From a virus, in the IMG/VR virus record IMGVR_UViG_3300042456_000433, positions 1-25,686 of that record: a DNA stretch of 25,686 bases; one strand, written 5' to 3'. The notes beneath the pieces were generated by a model. That model searched no databases, was not told the origin of the DNA, and was given only the letters and a program-made list of their open reading frames with translations. Every line of letters begins with the position of its first letter. Position 1 is the stretch's first letter. Of the stretch, positions 16,062-25,686 are shown piece by piece. Position numbers and translations under genes: made by a program.

Positions 16062-17360
16062 TTACGCGCCCACCGTGAACCGGACGTCGCCCGTGTGTGC
16101 GAAGTCGGCGTCGGCGTACATGTTGAGGATGAGGCGGGTGATGCCCGTCGCAGCCAAGGTGTACGGGTCGATAACGAGGTCGGCTGCTCCGCCGCCCCAG
16201 TATGCCACGTAGCAGTTCTCCATGTTCGCGATAACAATCGGAACGAGGTCGGCTTCGTTGCTGATAGTCGTCGATGCCGTGGTGTTGGCGTACACCTCGG
16301 AGTAGATGTCGTACGACGCGTCCGTGATGAGGCCAGCAGCTGCGAGCGACGTGCCGTATGCCTGGTAGCCAAAGATGGCGTTGTCCTGCATGATGGGGAT
16401 AGCGCCACCGGAAACCGTCGGGGTGTAGCGTGCCGTAGCGAGCAAGCCGTGCGACGTGATGAACGCCGTGCTGTTCGTCAAGGCGTTGGCGTTGCCGAGG
16501 GCTCCGATGAGGCCCGATGCCACCTGCGAGGTCAAGCCCGCGACGTTAGCGGCTGCCGTTTCGTTACGCTTCACGAACGTAGAAGCAGCAGCGGCGATGA
16601 CCTTGGTCAGGAACATCTCGTCCACCTGCGCAGCAGATGCCCGTGCGAATTGGCGCTGAACCGTAGCGTCGATGCTTTGGTTCATAGCTGCGAGCAACTC
16701 GTTGGTGATGTCGATACGCGAAGCCACACGCTGCGGAGAGAGCTGGCGCGCTGCGATAGCTGCTGCACCCGTTGCCGAAGCCGTTTCGTTGATGATGTCC
16801 GTGCCGTCGTTGAGGGATGGCAGGTTGATGTTTCCAGCGAGGCCGCGCAGGACGTTGGCGCCTGCCTGCTCGAGGATAGGGGTGGGGACGAGCGCCTCGA
16901 GGACGTTCGTGTTGGACTGTCCGGGGACGTTCGTGCCGCCGATGGTCGACGTGTTCCGGAGGATGAAGCCCGGGATCTGGGCCAAGCCGCGGACGCCTAC
17001 GCCTGCGTTCTTCAGGTCGGACGCTGCCTGCTGGCTCATCTCCGCCTCGAGGCCGGTCAAGCGGCCGGTCATCGATTCGCGGACGAGCTTGCTGATGGAG
17101 TAGCGCTGCTGGATTTTCTCCTGCTCGAGCACCTCCGGCTGCGGGGTTGCAGCAGAGAAGGCAGCACGCAATACCTGCGCCTCGGTCTTCTCGGCGCGCT
17201 CAATTTTCGCGTCGAGAGCCTCGATTTCGGTGTGCAGGTTGTCTACGGCCGTCTCTTCGGTTTCGTTGAATGACCGCTGCATCAGCTCGGCCGATTCGGT
17301 CAAGCTCTTCAGCTGGTTCAGCTTGGAGGCGCGCAGCGCCTTCATGTCGTTGAGGTTCAT
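16062..17360 (-). other. Possible internally started major capsid product, 432 aa
   Basis: Met356 of the fusion (ATG 17360-17358) begins MNLNDMKALRASKLNQLKSL, which is how stand-alone HK97-type capsid proteins usually start. A separate start here would yield scaffold plus capsid without the protease, giving the usual excess of capsid. A TACCTTTG resembling a Bacteroidota -7 box lies at 17394-17387, but there is no matching TTTG upstream, so internal transcription is only a weak possibility. No Shine-Dalgarno sequence is present. Confidence 0.4.
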
Positions 17361-18425
17361 GTATGGAAGGGTAAAGGGTTTCAGGTCAAAGGTAGTATTT
17401 GCCGAGATATTGATATGTCGGCTTTGGTTTTCCTCGAGGTCGTCATCCGGGCTGTCGTCCGGCATGTCGTTGGGCATGTCGTTAGGCATGTCTTCGGAGA
17501 CCTCCTCGGTGTAGTCGTCAATCATCGCCTTGATGTCGTCGAGCGATTCGATGATGTCGTCGAGCAGGTCTTCGGTCTTCTCGTCGCGCTCCTCGACTTC
17601 CGTCGGCAGGGAGTTGACGCCGCGTGCCGCCATGCGTGCGGCGACGGTGGTGGTGGGTGAGGCCGGGTACGTCACCGGGCTGACGTCGTACAGCTGGCCT
17701 ACGCGGGTGATGGTCCGCATGCTGCGGTCTTTGCTCCACTCGTCCTCATCGATAGTGAAGGCGAAGCTCGACTGCGTGATGTCGCCGCGCTTGATGAGCT
17801 TGTACAGGTCGCGCCCTTCGCTGGTGTCGGCAAGCATAGCACGGTAGTGCAGGCCGCGCGCGTCGATGGTCAGCTCGAGGGTGCCGTTCGTGGTCCGCGC
17901 CAGCGGGACGCCGGCGTGGTTGATGAGCAGCCGGACGTCGTCCTCGGTGCGCCCGTCGAAGGCGCCGGGAGCTACACGCTCCTGGAAGTAGCCCAGGTCG
18001 TAGCTGTCCCCGAAGACGGAGGCGTAGCCGCTGATGATCATATCCTCTGAAGCCCGCACCTCCATGGTACGCACCTCGACGTTCGGGCCGTAGATGTTCC
18101 GCAGCTCTTGCTCGCGGTCGTTGTTGTTCTCTTGCATCTCTTCGACTTTTTTGGTCGCCCACGTGAGGCCCGCGTCGCCACCCCACAGCAGGTAGCTGAT
18201 GGTGCCGCAGGCCTCCGTGTCGTCCGGATTGTAGTATGTCCTGGCGCGGGACAGGAAGCTGTACATGCGGACCGTCCGCTCGTGGCTGATGGTCTCGCGG
18301 TTGGAAAGTATGCGGGCCGTCTCTTTCCCCACCGGCGTGGCGCAGCGTCCGTTCACGGCGTCGTTGAGTTCGATGCCGCGCCGTGCGTTGTCCGTCACTG
18401 CCTGTGGGTAGTCGTTATACGGCAT
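16062..18425 (-). CDS. Prohead protease-scaffold-major capsid fusion, 787 aa
   Basis: Four parts are visible in one frame. Residues 1-97 are a small domain (CATPVGKETARILSNRE, SYLLWGGDAGLTWA) found in front of some phage proteases. Residues 115-265 are an S78-type prohead protease (SGYASVFGDSYDLGYFQERV, LLINHAGVPLART, QSSFAF) with H170 and S219/S220 as likely catalytic residues. Residues 275-335 are an acidic repeat (NDMPNDMPDDSPDDD), then 356-430 is a coiled-coil scaffold (delta) segment. The rest, about 460-787, is the HK97-fold capsid. HK97-like phages usually have protease and capsid as separate genes. It overlaps the portal gene by 11 bases. Confidence 0.92.
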   Translation of the reverse strand: MPYNDYPQAVTDNARRGIELNDAVNGRCATPVGKETARILSNRETISHERTVRMYSFLSRARTYYNPDDTEACGTISYLLWGGDAGLTWATKKVEEMQENNNDREQELRNIYGPNVEVRTMEVRASEDMIISGYASVFGDSYDLGYFQERVAPGAFDGRTEDDVRLLINHAGVPLARTTNGTLELTIDARGLHYRAMLADTSEGRDLYKLIKRGDITQSSFAFTIDEDEWSKDRSMRTITRVGQLYDVSPVTYPASPTTTVAARMAARGVNSLPTEVEERDEKTEDLLDDIIESLDDIKAMIDDYTEEVSEDMPNDMPNDMPDDSPDDDLEENQSRHINISANTTFDLKPFTLPYMNLNDMKALRASKLNQLKSLTESAELMQRSFNETEETAVDNLHTEIEALDAKIERAEKTEAQVLRAAFSAATPQPEVLEQEKIQQRYSISKLVRESMTGRLTGLEAEMSQQAASDLKNAGVGVRGLAQIPGFILRNTSTIGGTNVPGQSNTNVLEALVPTPILEQAGANVLRGLAGNINLPSLNDGTDIINETASATGAAAIAARQLSPQRVASRIDITNELLAAMNQSIDATVQRQFARASAAQVDEMFLTKVIAAAASTFVKRNETAAANVAGLTSQVASGLIGALGNANALTNSTAFITSHGLLATARYTPTVSGGAIPIMQDNAIFGYQAYGTSLAAAGLITDASYDIYSEVYANTTASTTISNEADLVPIVIANMENCYVAYWGGGAADLVIDPYTLAATGITRLILNMYADADFAHTGDVRFTVGA

Positions 18426-21674: not shown

Positions 21675-21953
21675 TTATTCCTTGTCGCTTGTCGCCCGCT
21701 TCTTGTTGTGGCACACCTCGCACAGCGGCTGGTGGTTGGCCACACGCCAGAACCACTGGGGTTTGGACTTGGCCGGGATGATGTGGTCGACGACTGTGGC
21801 GGGCCGCTCGCACACGGCGCACAGCGGGTTCATCTTCAGGAACCAAATGCGGTACTTCACCCACTTCCAGGTCTTGTACTGCCACTCGACGTGCTCGGCG
21901 CCGGGTATCTTTGCGTGCCACTTGGGTGGCTTGCCGTCGGGGACGTTAGGCAT
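21675..21953 (-). CDS. HNH endonuclease, 92 aa
   Basis: The protein has an HNH nuclease core: CAVC (45-48), the catalytic pair DH at 56-57, N73-H74, and CEVCHNKK (78-85) with a paired zinc-binding cysteine set. N-terminal residues 20-42 are aromatic and basic and may contact DNA. HNH proteins placed just before the small terminase are needed, in several phages, for cos cutting together with the terminase. It overlaps the glycosyltransferase gene by 8 bases, so it is part of the same transcript. Confidence 0.92.
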   Translation of the reverse strand: MPNVPDGKPPKWHAKIPGAEHVEWQYKTWKWVKYRIWFLKMNPLCAVCERPATVVDHIIPAKSKPQWFWRVANHQPLCEVCHNKKRATSDKE

Positions 21954-22653
21954 GGGAGAAGTAGTGGGCGGCTGCTGCGTCGCGCTTGCGCCGTTGGTCT
22001 TGCGAGGCGTGTAGAGCTTCGAGTCCTTCCTTGAGGTTGGTGATGCGACTCATGAGCATGGCAGGTATCACCTTGTTCTCGAGCATGGCGCTGACGCATA
22101 TGTCGTCGCATGTGTCGTTGTAGTCATCGAGGGCACGTGGCATGAGGCTGATGTGCTCCGGTCGCAGGAAGAAGAAGCGGCCCTTGACGATGTCCGTCTT
22201 GGCGTCTGTGTGGCTGGCTGGGTGGTGCATGCTGCGCCAGTACGATCGGCCGGGCAGCAGGCAGACGCCGTTGATGCCGAGGGCCTGCACGGCTGGGTTC
22301 TCGTCCATGTACTGCTCGCAGTCGGAGATGACGTCCTCATCTACGAACGTCAGGTCGTCGTCCATGATGAGGATGTACTGTGTGTTTGTGTAGCAAATCT
22401 CCATCCACCGCTGCCAGCACTTGCGCTCGTTGGTATAGCGCACGATGCGGTGTGCTATGCCTTCGTAGCGATGTCGGCTGTCCGAGGCGTTATCGACCAC
22501 CAGTATCTCGGGGTTGGCGCTTTGTCGTGAGCAGTCCTCGGTAATCTTCTGCAGCTGCGACGACCGCCTCCAGTTGGTGTAAATGACGGTGGTGCGCGCT
22601 TGCGGCCTGTCTCTGTCTTTGGGGTGCTCGAAGTGGTGGCCGTTGTGGTTCAT
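21946..22653 (-). CDS. Glycosyltransferase family 2, 235 aa
   Basis: A GT-A, family-2-like glycosyltransferase. The nucleotide-sugar site is visible in TTVIYTNWRRS (21-31) and ILVVDNASD (50-58), the metal motif in ILIMDDDL (94-101, DDD at 98-100), and the acceptor-side block TDIVKGRFFFLRPEHISLMP with CDDICVSAML (182-191). The first 20 residues are polar and probably not part of the fold. The ATG overlaps the methyltransferase stop as ATGA, so the two enzymes are made together. The sugar donor and target cannot be told. Confidence 0.85.
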   Translation of the reverse strand: MNHNGHHFEHPKDRDRPQARTTVIYTNWRRSSQLQKITEDCSRQSANPEILVVDNASDSRHRYEGIAHRIVRYTNERKCWQRWMEICYTNTQYILIMDDDLTFVDEDVISDCEQYMDENPAVQALGINGVCLLPGRSYWRSMHHPASHTDAKTDIVKGRFFFLRPEHISLMPRALDDYNDTCDDICVSAMLENKVIPAMLMSRITNLKEGLEALHASQDQRRKRDAAAAHYFSHA

Positions 22654-23180
22654 AGCTGGATGAAGTAGGAGGGGATATAGTCGGTGGTAAGGATAGGCTG
22701 GCGCAGGTCGTAGGCTTTGATGAAGTCGTTCACGGCGTCGCGGACGCCTGGCGTGTTCTTGTGGTAGTCGTGACCTCCAAGGATGGTCCGCCTGCCCTTG
22801 AGCAGCTGGTAGGCGTGGGTGAGGTCGCGCATGACGGCTGGGTAGGTGTGGTCTGCGTCGATGTAGATAAAGTCGGGCTGAATGTCTATGTCCTTAAATC
22901 CGTCGGGCGATGGTCCGAGGAAGGAGACAGGCTCTCCGTACAGCTCGCGCTCGAGGCTCTTGCGCATGTGGTGAAGGTTGGCCACTTGCCGCTTGTTGCC
23001 GAGCCCGCTGGCTGCCGTTCCTGTCCACGTGTCCATGAGATAGAGGTAGGTGGGTTTGCTGCGCAGGATGGCCTTGGCGTTGTCTCCCATGAAGACGCCG
23101 ACCTCTACGACGACGCGCCCTGGCACGATGTCTTTGTAGACGTGGCCTCTGCTCTTGTAGTTCTTGTTGATGTCAAGCAT
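22650..23180 (-). CDS. Class I SAM-dependent methyltransferase, 176 aa
   Basis: Motif I for the cofactor is VVVEVGVFMGDNA (23-35), then LYLMDTWTG (46-54), DFIYIDADHTYPAVMRDL (103-120) and the motif ILGGHDYHKNTPGVRDAV (133-150), followed by a hydrophobic end. The pattern (V-E-V-G, then Y-I-D-A-D-H-x-Y, then G-G-H-D-Y) is that of the Methyltransf_24 group of sugar or small-molecule O-methyltransferases rather than DNA methylases; the DNA-methylase motif DPPY/NPPY is absent. It is coupled to the glycosyltransferase gene. Confidence 0.88.
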   Translation of the reverse strand: MLDINKNYKSRGHVYKDIVPGRVVVEVGVFMGDNAKAILRSKPTYLYLMDTWTGTAASGLGNKRQVANLHHMRKSLERELYGEPVSFLGPSPDGFKDIDIQPDFIYIDADHTYPAVMRDLTHAYQLLKGRRTILGGHDYHKNTPGVRDAVNDFIKAYDLRQPILTTDYIPSYFIQL

Positions 23181-23335: not shown

Positions 23336-23834
23336 CTCCTGGACCTCTATCTCGTCCTCCGGCCTGATGTACCACTCGCTTGATACTGGCGTGAAGTAGA
23401 GCAGCCGCTTTGTATCGGGATGCAAGCTCCACCAGCTCCTCCACCTTGTACGCTCGGTGCTGCTGCGCTCGTTGCATAACCTGATGAGCTCTTCCCGGCT
23501 GCTCACGTTCGAGATTGCATCCAAATAGCCACTGTTCTCCTGCTCGGTAAATGTTGCAGGAAACGCACTGTACTCGGACGTTGTCCTGATTCCATCGTGT
23601 AGCCCAAAAGCGGCGAGAGGCGAAATGTCCGGCCTGCAGGTTGCTGACGTGGTCCTCTTTGCCGCAGGTGAAACACCTGGCGTTGCCGTATCTGTCTGCT
23701 GCTTCATAGCGCACCAGCTTGCTGAACCACAGGTCTACCTTCTTGACTGCCTGCGCGTGGGTGAGCTTCCTGCCTTTGGGCTTCGCTTTGGGTTTGGTGT
23801 GCAGCTGTCGGCACGCCTTGCTGTCTTTCGCCAT
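23325..23834 (-). CDS. ninG: NinG-like recombination endonuclease, 169 aa
   Basis: The core CFTCGKEDHVSNLQAGHF (54-71), then SRRFWATRWNQDNVRVQCVS (73-92) with CVSC, and QWLFGCNLER, is the NinG/Rap zinc-binding nuclease pattern, related to HNH folds (two CxxC sets with a G-H). The basic N-terminus (KPKAKPKGRK) should bind DNA; residues 33-42 carry the usual WFSKLVR. NinG proteins cut branched DNA during phage recombination and replication. The ATG at 23834 is supported by the N-terminal match although it overlaps the upstream gene by 131 bases. The last 16 residues look like out-of-frame tail. Confidence 0.85.
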   Translation of the reverse strand: MAKDSKACRQLHTKPKAKPKGRKLTHAQAVKKVDLWFSKLVRYEAADRYGNARCFTCGKEDHVSNLQAGHFASRRFWATRWNQDNVRVQCVSCNIYRAGEQWLFGCNLEREQPGRAHQVMQRAQQHRAYKVEELVELASRYKAAALLHASIKRVVHQAGGRDRGPGVEE

Positions 23835-24273
23835 CGGTAGCCAAGATACCGGCTTTGGGCTTGTAGGCGGGCAGGTCGAGGACGTCGGCTATGGCGGTGA
23901 GGGATTGTGCGGTGCGCTCGGTGGCGGGCTTGATGTCCTGCACGTCGGGGTCATACTTGGCTGCGTGGCGCATGCGGTGGCGTGCTCGCTCGTCGGCATA
24001 CTGGCGCATGCAGGCGTACAGCTCACGGGCTTTGAATCGCTCGTACAGGTTCTCCGGCCCCAGGCGTCCGGTCCGGATCATGGCAAAGCAGTGGCGCAGC
24101 TCGTCGAGTGTCCAGCCGTAGTTCTCGGTGATGACGGTCATGGCGTCGTCGAAGTCGGCGGCGGTGCGCATGGTCACCTTGCACTCGAGAGCGTTGACCA
24201 GCTCCTTTAGGGTGTACAGGATGGCGGCGTTGGTGTCCTCCGGTCCCAGCTCGAGGGCTTTGCGAATGGTCAT
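23704..24273 (-). CDS. Hypothetical replication-region protein, about 189 aa
   Basis: I chose MTIRKALELGPEDTNAAILY (ATG 24273-24271), which follows the replication gene stop by 4 bases (TGAGGACATG). A longer start at 24372 overlaps that gene by 95 bases. The body is helical (VITENYGWTLDELRHCFAMI) with a basic block (ENLYERFKARELYACMRQYA), a pattern seen in uncharacterised phage proteins placed after replication initiators. The last 40 or so residues lie over NinG in another frame and look out of frame, so the native protein may be shorter. No function assigned. Confidence 0.65.
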   Translation of the reverse strand: MTIRKALELGPEDTNAAILYTLKELVNALECKVTMRTAADFDDAMTVITENYGWTLDELRHCFAMIRTGRLGPENLYERFKARELYACMRQYADERARHRMRHAAKYDPDVQDIKPATERTAQSLTAIADVLDLPAYKPKAGILATDGERQQGVPTAAHQTQSEAQRQEAHPRAGSQEGRPVVQQAGAL

Positions 24274-24277
24274 GTCC

Positions 24278-25036
24278 TCACTGGTGGTTTTGGGGAAAGC
24301 GAGGCCCGTATCGCTTTGCCACAAGGCGCGCAAGGTCGTCCGCAGTGATGTCCTTACCTCGTGGTCGGTCATGCTGATGATTTCCCCGCTTGTTGTCAAG
24401 AGGAAAGAGCCCCTGCCATCCGTTGGCGATGGACTGGGCGATAATTTGTGCCGCTGTGTGCTCATTGTCTTGGCTGATTTGTTGCAGTCGGTGAAGTGCG
24501 GTCTGGAGGCCGCGGGTGGTGTAAGGCTTGATGCGTCGCTCGCGGCGATCGGCCTCCCACTCCTTCCAAGCGTTCATGAACTGGTCAGAATTGAATGGCC
24601 AAATAACCTCGCGCGCACGCGCGGTGGTCTTTACTACTTCTTTACTATATCTATTCTCTTCTATACTATGCGCAACTGTGGTTGCTTCTTGGCGCAACTG
24701 TGGTTGCAACTCTTGCGCCTCTGGTTGCAACTCTTGCGCCTCTGGTTGCTTGCTTCTCTGGTTGCTTGCAACTACAGGCGCAACTTCGACATGGAGCCGT
24801 CTTTTGTAGCCGTAGCCGTCGGTCACAATGTGCCCGCTGGCCTCCAGCTGCTGCCGCATCTTGCGTACGTGCTGTGGGGTGCAGCGGAGCGAGTGGGCGA
24901 GGAACTCGTCCCCGGCCCAGCTCGCACCGTCCTGCTTACTCAACGCCATCAGACGCGCAAGGAATACCCTGTGAAGGGGCGGCAGGTCAAGCTGCCACAC
25001 TTCAGCTGGTATCCAAATGCCGTTGGCGTGTTCCAT
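24278..25036 (-). CDS. Phage replication initiator with winged helix, 252 aa
   Basis: Residues 15-82 form a winged helix-turn-helix (LPPLHRVFLARLMALSKQDG, then LAHSLRCTPQHVRKMRQQLE and SGHIVTDGYGYKRRLHVE), the type in DnaD-like and lambda-O-like initiators. A variable linker (85-140) includes two copies of QPEAQEL (97-110). The C-terminal part (147-212) has FNSDQFMNAWKEW, IKPYTTRGLQTALHRL and SIANGWQGLF, typical of phage replication proteins that bind the helicase or its loader. The linker DNA carries iteron-like repeats and an AT-rich stretch, so the protein may bind inside its own gene. It ends 4 bases before the next ATG. Confidence 0.82.
   Translation of the reverse strand: MEHANGIWIPAEVWQLDLPPLHRVFLARLMALSKQDGASWAGDEFLAHSLRCTPQHVRKMRQQLEASGHIVTDGYGYKRRLHVEVAPVVASNQRSKQPEAQELQPEAQELQPQLRQEATTVAHSIEENRYSKEVVKTTARAREVIWPFNSDQFMNAWKEWEADRRERRIKPYTTRGLQTALHRLQQISQDNEHTAAQIIAQSIANGWQGLFPLDNKRGNHQHDRPRGKDITADDLARLVAKRYGPRFPQNHQ
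24629..24765. other. Candidate replication origin inside the initiator gene (iterons plus AT-rich tract)
   Basis: GGTTGC occurs five times on the plus strand at 24680, 24702, 24723, 24744 and 24760, with gaps of 22, 21, 21 and 16 bases. Two 16-base copies of GCGCAACTGTGGTTGC (24670-24685 and 24692-24707) hold the inverted GCAAC...GTTGC. Next to them, 24629-24669 is AT-rich (10 C and no G in 41 bases on the plus strand) in a GC-rich genome. The phage lambda origin has the same plan inside gene O. Part of the repeat also codes QPEAQEL twice. Confidence 0.65.
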
Positions 25037-25039
25037 GGC

Positions 25040-25273
25040 TTACCGTGGTCCGATGCTCTGCAGGTACTCCTCGTGGTACAGCACCTCGCCCATGATTTGT
25101 GTCTCGGTGACGTTGCACTGTTGCACCATGGTCGGCATGTACTTGAGAAGCCCGCGCGGGTTGCGCTTTAGCCAGTTCTTTATGGTCTGCGGGCTGACCT
25201 TGAGGTTGCCAGCCGCCATGGTCAGGCTTCCGTAGTGCTTATTCAGGAACGCTTCCATGCTGGTCACTATCAT
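25040..25273 (-). CDS. Small HTH DNA-binding protein, about 77 aa
   Basis: The protein starts MIVTSMEAFLNKHYGSLTMA and contains a helix-turn-helix of the Cro/CI style (LTMAAGNLKVSPQTIKNWLK), followed by a short helical tail. An alternative start at 25300 adds 9 residues that overlap SSB. It could regulate the early operon or help initiation. It lies between SSB and the initiator gene. No lysogeny partner gene is seen, so it is not necessarily a repressor. Confidence 0.75.
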   Translation of the reverse strand: MIVTSMEAFLNKHYGSLTMAAGNLKVSPQTIKNWLKRNPRGLLKYMPTMVQQCNVTETQIMGEVLYHEEYLQSIGPR

Positions 25274-25283
25274 GTAGTTTTCG

Positions 25284-25634
25284 TCAGAAGGGCAGGTCAT
25301 TGGGCGTCGGGGTTGACGGTGGTGCCATGCGGTTAGTGGTGCGTCCTGCGAGCGGCTTCTTGGCTGGTGCTGGAGCAGGTGCCTCCTCGGGCTTGCCTGC
25401 GTACTTCAGCTCGACAAAGTAGCGGCCATTCCACTCCCGGCTATTCAGCCAGCACTCGAGCGTGATCGGGTGCTCTGCCACCAGTGCGAGGGCTTCATCC
25501 ACGTCGTCCTTCTTGAAGGTGACGGGGTAGATATTACTGCCTGCCTCGATGAGGACGTCGCATACTGTGAATCCAGAGGCGAAGGTCTTGGGCTCTTGCA
25601 CCGCCTTTACGGTGCCGTTAATAGTTACTTTCAT
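25284..25634 (-). CDS. Single-stranded DNA-binding protein-like (OB fold, DUF3127-like), 116 aa
   Basis: The first 80 residues form a compact beta barrel pattern (MKVTINGTVKAVQEPKTFAS, NIYPVTFKKDD, ITLECWLNSREWNGRYFVEL). This resembles the small OB-fold SSB-like proteins (DUF3127 type) common in Bacteroidota. The middle (83-110) is rich in P, A and K, like a disordered tail, and the end NDLPF matches the acidic tip (DxPF) by which SSB recruits partner proteins. The 5' end is repeated at window positions 1-75 because of the circle join. It overlaps the upstream gene by 17 bases. Confidence 0.85.
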   Translation of the reverse strand: MKVTINGTVKAVQEPKTFASGFTVCDVLIEAGSNIYPVTFKKDDVDEALALVAEHPITLECWLNSREWNGRYFVELKYAGKPEEAPAPAPAKKPLAGRTTNRMAPPSTPTPNDLPF

Positions 25635-25686
25635 TAATAAAGGATTTGATAAAACGTGCCATTTGGGTCTGTGTCCATCGGCCGCG
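25560..25686. repeat. Terminal direct repeat, right copy (circle junction)
   Basis: Identical to 1-127. It carries the SSB start and, beyond it, the 3' end of the gene seen in full at 59-340. Joining the ends through this repeat gives uninterrupted reading frames on the minus strand. Confidence 0.95.
25618..25686 (-). CDS. 3' end of the 93-aa hypothetical gene (duplicate of 59-340)
   Basis: This is the last 22 codons and stop of the gene at 59-340, present again because of the terminal repeat, and cut at its 5' side by the window edge. It is not an independent gene. It shows that this gene ends 17 bases inside the SSB gene. Confidence 0.85.
   Translation of the reverse strand, partial: RGRWTQTQMARFIKSFINESNY

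Follow-up and report, generated by a model that had tools for sequence, protein, structure and literature searches.

An iteron array within the initiator gene of an uncultivated phage is very probably its replication origin

Does a cluster of short repeats in the replication initiator gene of an uncultivated phage mark the place where replication starts, or do the repeats belong to the protein, to an RNA or to the regulation of the operon? We investigated this question in the viral record IMGVR_UViG_3300042456_000433, analysed over its whole length of 25,686 nt (the window). Bases 1-127 are identical to bases 25560-25686, which indicates a circular contig or one with terminal redundancy; its true length is 25,559 bp. 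Based on the evidence discussed below, we consider it very probable that the phage carries a theta-type replication origin inside its own initiator gene. This supports the interpretation of the first-pass annotation, which had proposed an embedded origin consisting of iterons followed by AT-rich DNA, an order of elements that agrees with the annotated lambda ori.

The initiator gene (24278..25036, minus strand), recognised by its open reading frame, its translation and PHROG 678, encodes 252 aa with a winged-helix N-domain, a linker whose coding part holds the putative origin, and a C-terminal helical domain. Among profiles, PHROG 678 ('replication initiation O-like') matches it best (residues 7-227, E 1.1e-16), and lambda O matches this profile too (E 1.7e-35). 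Pfam Phage_rep_O (PF04492), however, gave no match to the initiator at E<=1, lambda O as a control reaching E 5.7e-36. Because PHROG classes the protein as O-like whereas Phage_rep_O does not match it, the earlier label 'lambda-O-like' is better supported in the sense of 'works like lambda O' than in the sense of 'is lambda O'. The N-terminal part (24776..25036, minus strand, residues 1-87) is predicted to bind DNA. Its secondary structure is predicted in the order H-H-H-E-E, and the best Pfam lead for the initiator, HTH_36 (PF13730; residues 17-70, E 0.0026), stays with 18.0 bits below the cutoff of 25; the linker is predicted to be disordered. The structure models are of low confidence (mean pLDDT 45 for this phage and 37 for a B-type initiator, see below, the latter too poor for use). 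Comparison of the low-confidence model by VIA-align placed Rep N-domains (4pql, 4pt7, 4pta, 5kbj; Z 8.4-9.1) in the best rows, the plasmid Rep N-domains being tied with LexA, MntR and DnaD rows. The models are too weak for a finer placement of the N-domain than as a winged helix. A PDB sequence search with the initiator matched nothing, and no sequence-level match to the RepA_N family was found. The C-terminal part (24281..24607, minus strand), presumably the contact to helicase or loader, has 68-93% of its amino acids in common with the B-type initiators, from which the N-domain differs.

The gene directly downstream (23704..24273, minus strand) occupies the position of lambda P, and its ATG adjoins the initiator stop codon. 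Its product matches PHROG 26016 (function unknown; E 8.5e-4), but not the P-like PHROG 109, to which both lambda P and the P protein of PdC23 belong by the same search. Directly upstream, in the position of lambda cII, lies a gene for a small HTH-like protein (25040..25300, minus strand) with sub-threshold matches to P22_Cro and HTH profiles. The iteron array sits within the early operon.

Five copies of GGTTGC with spacings of 22, 21, 21 and 16 bp had been reported for the linker-coding part of the gene, and we found them on the plus strand at 24680, 24702, 24723, 24744 and 24760, all inside 24278-25036, the coding strand reading GCAACC; the QPEAQEL repeat of the linker is present as well, QPEAQELQPEAQEL being encoded at the array. 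The iterons are imperfect dyads of the form GCAAC-N4-GTTGC. On the minus strand, iteron 1 (GCAACCAGAGAAGC, 24752..24765, codon phase 1) has three mismatches to the dyad GCAACYACAGTTGC, and iterons 2 and 3 (both GCAACCAGAGGCGC, 24736..24749 and 24715..24728, both in codon phase 2) have as many. The two copies nearest the AT-rich tract are complete (two of five) and share the dyad GCAAC-CACA-GTTGC: iteron 4 (24694..24707, codon phase 2) reads Q-P-Q-L and iteron 5 (24672..24685, codon phase 0) reads A-T-T-V-A, because the two are 22 bp apart and hence lie in different frames. Among relatives, the dyad is complete in up to five of five copies. Genome-wide, GGTTGC shows no enrichment (22 copies against 19.4 expected); what stands out is its clustering, since any 6-mer occurring five times in 86 bp was encountered in the whole genome only in the windows starting at 24679 and 24680. 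At the array, 130 bp contain 11 copies of the half-site GTTGC/GCAAC, with four in the next densest window and a mean of 0.37; the array with its outer half-sites (24672..24784, minus strand) therefore reaches to about 24784, past the end given in the first-pass annotation.

Beside the iterons, the 41-bp tract described earlier as AT-rich and free of G was confirmed at 24629..24669 (plus strand: 22 T, 9 A, 10 C, 0 G). It is purine-rich on the coding (minus) strand and, by nearest-neighbour energy, the least stable stretch of the genome at both 41 and 50 bp, making it a candidate DNA unwinding element. In the tabulated relatives a tract of 72-80% AT follows the array; in L069 the automatic measure was thrown off by a stray match farther downstream, but the tract can be seen by eye. 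The GC skew, which had been expected to centre on the origin, was rejected as a marker: its extreme falls near 24.55 kb, but a range as large is reached by 17% of block shuffles (not significant), and its sign is opposite to the usual origin rule.

Comparison with related contigs revealed that this region is exchanged as a block. In L008, L009, L011 and L012, here called B-type, another winged-helix N-domain is joined to the C-domain of this phage: DNA identity is about 85-96% in the flanks adjoining the initiator, whereas from -6 onwards none can be detected until the AT tract, or its end, is reached. The exchanged module (24608..25042, minus strand) comprises N-domain, iterons and AT tract; its upstream junction lies at the start codon (DNA identity of about 90% persists to -6) and its downstream junction at the GC-rich CGCGCGAGG directly past the AT tract, where identity returns to about 90%. 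The B-type genes carry five iterons of their own (CGACACNAACGTC, spacings 19 and 23, codon phases 1, 2, 1, 0, 2) as well as their own purine/AT-rich tract. The converse swap is found in L034, which shares with this phage only N-domain, iterons and AT tract and almost nothing of the surroundings, and the N-domain and iterons of this phage (A-type) occur on unrelated C-terminal domains too. Several details of this mosaicism were noted in passing. The GC-rich run at the downstream junction (24607-24616, CGCG/GCGCGCGAGG) may be a recombination hot spot. In L034 (3998-4804, equal to L059) an in-frame 21-bp insertion duplicates the outer GTTGCGCCTGTAG unit, so that arrays can lengthen in units of 21 bp. 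At the end of the initiator gene in L012 and L013, the usual C-terminal tail has given way to one of a second type (IRNERQPARPERPRGPDITPDDVARIV), the start of the next gene being altered too; this is a further mosaic point.

Pairs of neighbouring iterons, A-type or B-type, were also searched at the DNA level only in 2.9 million viral contigs. The A-type scan returned 22 stretches, over half of them from contigs new to the analysis; every array lies in an initiator gene, whose N-domain is of the A type (51-100% identity) in all but L065, which is cut at the contig edge before the N-domain, and the C-domains are either of a 'W..GLF' type or of an unrelated 'GW..G..KMKDWKA' type. All ten stretches of the B-type scan belong to contigs of the B-type set. 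N-domain type and iteron type are strictly co-inherited in these sequences. In the tabulated A-type genes, steps of 21, 21 and 22 bp separate the copies next to the AT tract (at the 3-mismatch cut, one copy is missing from three rows), and outer gaps measure 16, 21 or 32. This spacing fits helical phasing, and a step of 22 bp changes the reading frame. The expectation that iteron DNA should be kept while the gene drifts was borne out: where the N-domain is about 52% identical, the linker residues differ, yet the dyads are still present in their 21-21-22 spacing.

A reciprocal search by N-domain alignment yielded 80 loci. Fifty relatives reach the linker and have an N-domain identity of 49% or higher (seven of them are duplicate sequences). 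Every one of these has an in-gene array that exceeds all 60 codon-shuffled controls, and 48 of the 50 contain at least two GCAACYACAGTTGC dyads with two or fewer mismatches. Relatives keeping the initiator but lacking the repeats, which the first-pass annotation had named as the refuting case, were looked for among these 50, and none was found. The two exceptions, L090 and L091 (initiator gene from 2001), have the iteron GTTCC-N4-GGAAC, and the start of their recognition helix is changed from CTPQ to CTVP (P54-Q55 to V-P, in the residues 54-55 of this phage). As the two are near-identical, they count as one event; the change of iteron and helix is possibly a natural switch of specificity, the co-variation being only suggestive. 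Among 28 distant N-domain relatives (23-47% identity), 15 have other arrays and 13 no significant in-gene array, so that not every member of the wider family has this architecture.

An obvious objection is that the repeats are nothing else than an expanded low-complexity protein linker, with the QPEAQEL unit copied and the DNA having no function. The predicted disorder of the linker would agree with this, as would the fact that a tandem 21-bp duplication preserves the frame. The codon phases, however, vary among the copies (1, 2, 2, 2, 0, i.e. all three reading frames), one identical 14-mer being read as QPQL or as ATTVA. When codons were resampled with the protein held fixed (n=5000), the repeat redundancy of the DNA was reached in 0/5000 cases in the initiator gene, with the same outcome for a B-type relative and for lambda O, the positive control. 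Iterons in several codon phases together with this failure of resampling mean that the protein cannot explain the repeat. The synonymous sites are frozen as well: codons for the same residue are identical to those of L034, whose N-domain is 84% identical over the aligned stretch, in 36/37 cases in the linker and 29/62 in the N-domain (Fisher p 5e-8), and variable third positions amount to 1/39 in the linker against 18/83 among close A-type genes (p 0.006), and to 0/38 against 18/86 among B-type genes (p 0.0015). The L034 figures by themselves might also arise if only the linker had recombined recently, but such an event is unlikely to account for all three sets. Taken with the persistence of the motif in differing linkers at 52% N-domain identity, this rules out a pure protein repeat, to which we assign next to no probability. 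The array is a DNA signal, and the view of the first-pass annotation that QPEAQEL is protein sequence constrained by DNA agrees with the mixed phases, the frozen sites and the resampling alike; the protein sequence of the linker would then largely be a by-product of the DNA sites. Equally improbable, in our judgement, is a freezing of synonymous sites by RNA structure or by an overlapping antisense gene instead of protein-binding DNA. The A-type strand does fold better as RNA than its shuffles (z -4.5) and a 347-aa plus-strand ORF spans the region, yet the B-type iterons have no such excess (z -0.64), which removes a common RNA structure from consideration, and the plus-strand ORF covers the whole initiator gene, while the constraint is limited to the linker and the N-domain part is free to drift, which likewise discards the ORF as its cause. 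Helical phasing and dyad symmetry, furthermore, favour DNA.

Slightly more weight, though still very little, can be given to a DNA-level alternative: the array could mainly be an operator or incompatibility element, through which the initiator autoregulates its operon or the copy number instead of starting replication. Sites of DNA-binding proteins often are regulatory, and the position within the early operon would suit such a role; on the other hand, the array is located some 250 bp into the gene and not at a promoter, it is followed by the AT/purine tract, and the order of elements agrees with the origins of lambda and pSK41. Regulation could, moreover, coexist with origin function rather than replace it.

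For the embedded origin, we suggest by analogy with lambda that the N-terminal winged-helix domain would bind the five dyad iterons, probably as dimers, at sites which are about 21 bp and hence two helical turns apart. The assembled complex would strain and melt the adjoining AT/purine-rich tract, and the C-terminal domain would bring the replicative helicase, either directly or via a loader such as the product of 23704-24273, so that replication could start.

In lambda, O dimers bind inverted-repeat iterons and a neighbouring 40-bp A+T-rich region opens (PMC5043065), and the O gene is a known in-gene origin (PMC3349717, PMC6022878). The likeness extends to inverted-repeat iterons (ITN1-4), spaced by about 20-24 bp and distributed over all three frames in the linker-coding part of O, and to a tract of about 40 bp, AT-rich and purine-rich, adjoining on the C-terminal side. 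The N-domain of O binds DNA and its C-domain binds the loader (PMC3349717, PMC6022878, PMC5043065), a division of tasks which the initiator of this phage may share. Unlike lambda, this phage has five iterons of unrelated sequence, its initiator lacks PF04492 and the downstream gene is not recognisably P. The staphylococcal plasmid pSK41 (RepA_N family) has its origin centrally in rep; the winged-helix N-domain binds four boxes and the linker protein is dispensable (PMC5703833). The Rep of pPR9 is chimeric relative to it: roughly 500 bp with N-domain (pfam13730 HTH) and origin have been exchanged, the C-domain being >97% identical (PMC5703833). The in-rep origin and the joint swap of N-domain and origin resemble our observations, the PF13730 lead of our initiator being sub-cutoff; pSK41 differs in being a plasmid and not a phage and in its iterons and C-domain, and the initiator gave no RepA_N match at the sequence level. 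In the Stx phages P27 and 933W, O contains six iterons, and their number varies, lengthening the O linker (PMC7466680); the variable number is shared, but their iterons and O are lambda-type, unlike those found here. Two further phages with PHROG 678 initiators like ours, annotated only as hypothetical proteins, have arrays in the O-like gene which exceed codon-shuffled controls and differ in iteron sequence: the Pseudomonas phage Cruim01 (PP179333.1, 48162-48911; CCTATTCGGAAAA) and the Vibrio phage 1.177.O (MG592544.1, 40095-40823; GACAGGCAAGC). These arrays probably are origins unmarked in their records. The test for in-gene repeats was weak or marginal in Klebsiella phage ST11-OXA245phi3.2 and Pantoea phage PdC23, and in Erythrobacter ZS04 the repeat is mingled with simple CCAGAA repeats.

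The genome offers some further observations. A single 787-aa ORF (16062-18425), in which an NDMPNDMPDD unit of acidic character is repeated in tandem (17442-17492), looks like a capsid maturation protease fused to the major capsid protein, and genes for a Glycosyltransferase family 2 protein and a Methyltransf_24 protein lie at 21946-23180, between the replication genes and the terminase. The phage encodes a DUF3127 protein and the C-domain of its initiator resembles Bacteroides plasmid proteins, which together hint at a Bacteroidota host; a host and prophage search of genome contigs with the C-domain alignment and TerL as queries returned no relatives.

Altogether, the origin is of an ordinary kind; the phage group is new, and the comparative evidence for the origin is unusually clean. 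Sequence alone has sufficed to place the origin in this group of uncultivated phages, which also provides a natural experiment with interchangeable DNA-binding domains and their cognate sites. The test by codon phase and synonymous sites could reveal in-gene origins across viral metagenomes, and the matched sets (A-type, B-type and L090/L091) make initiator-iteron specificity directly testable. Whether N-domain, iterons and AT tract form a portable and self-contained cassette, shuffled by uncultivated phages as one block onto several C-domains which are mutually unrelated or very diverged, with the 21/22-bp phasing kept despite large protein divergence, is a question on which we find the balance even. 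If they do, the natural variants L090/L091 would reveal part of the recognition code, and the exchange may be selected as an escape from replication interference by related phages, plasmids or satellites.
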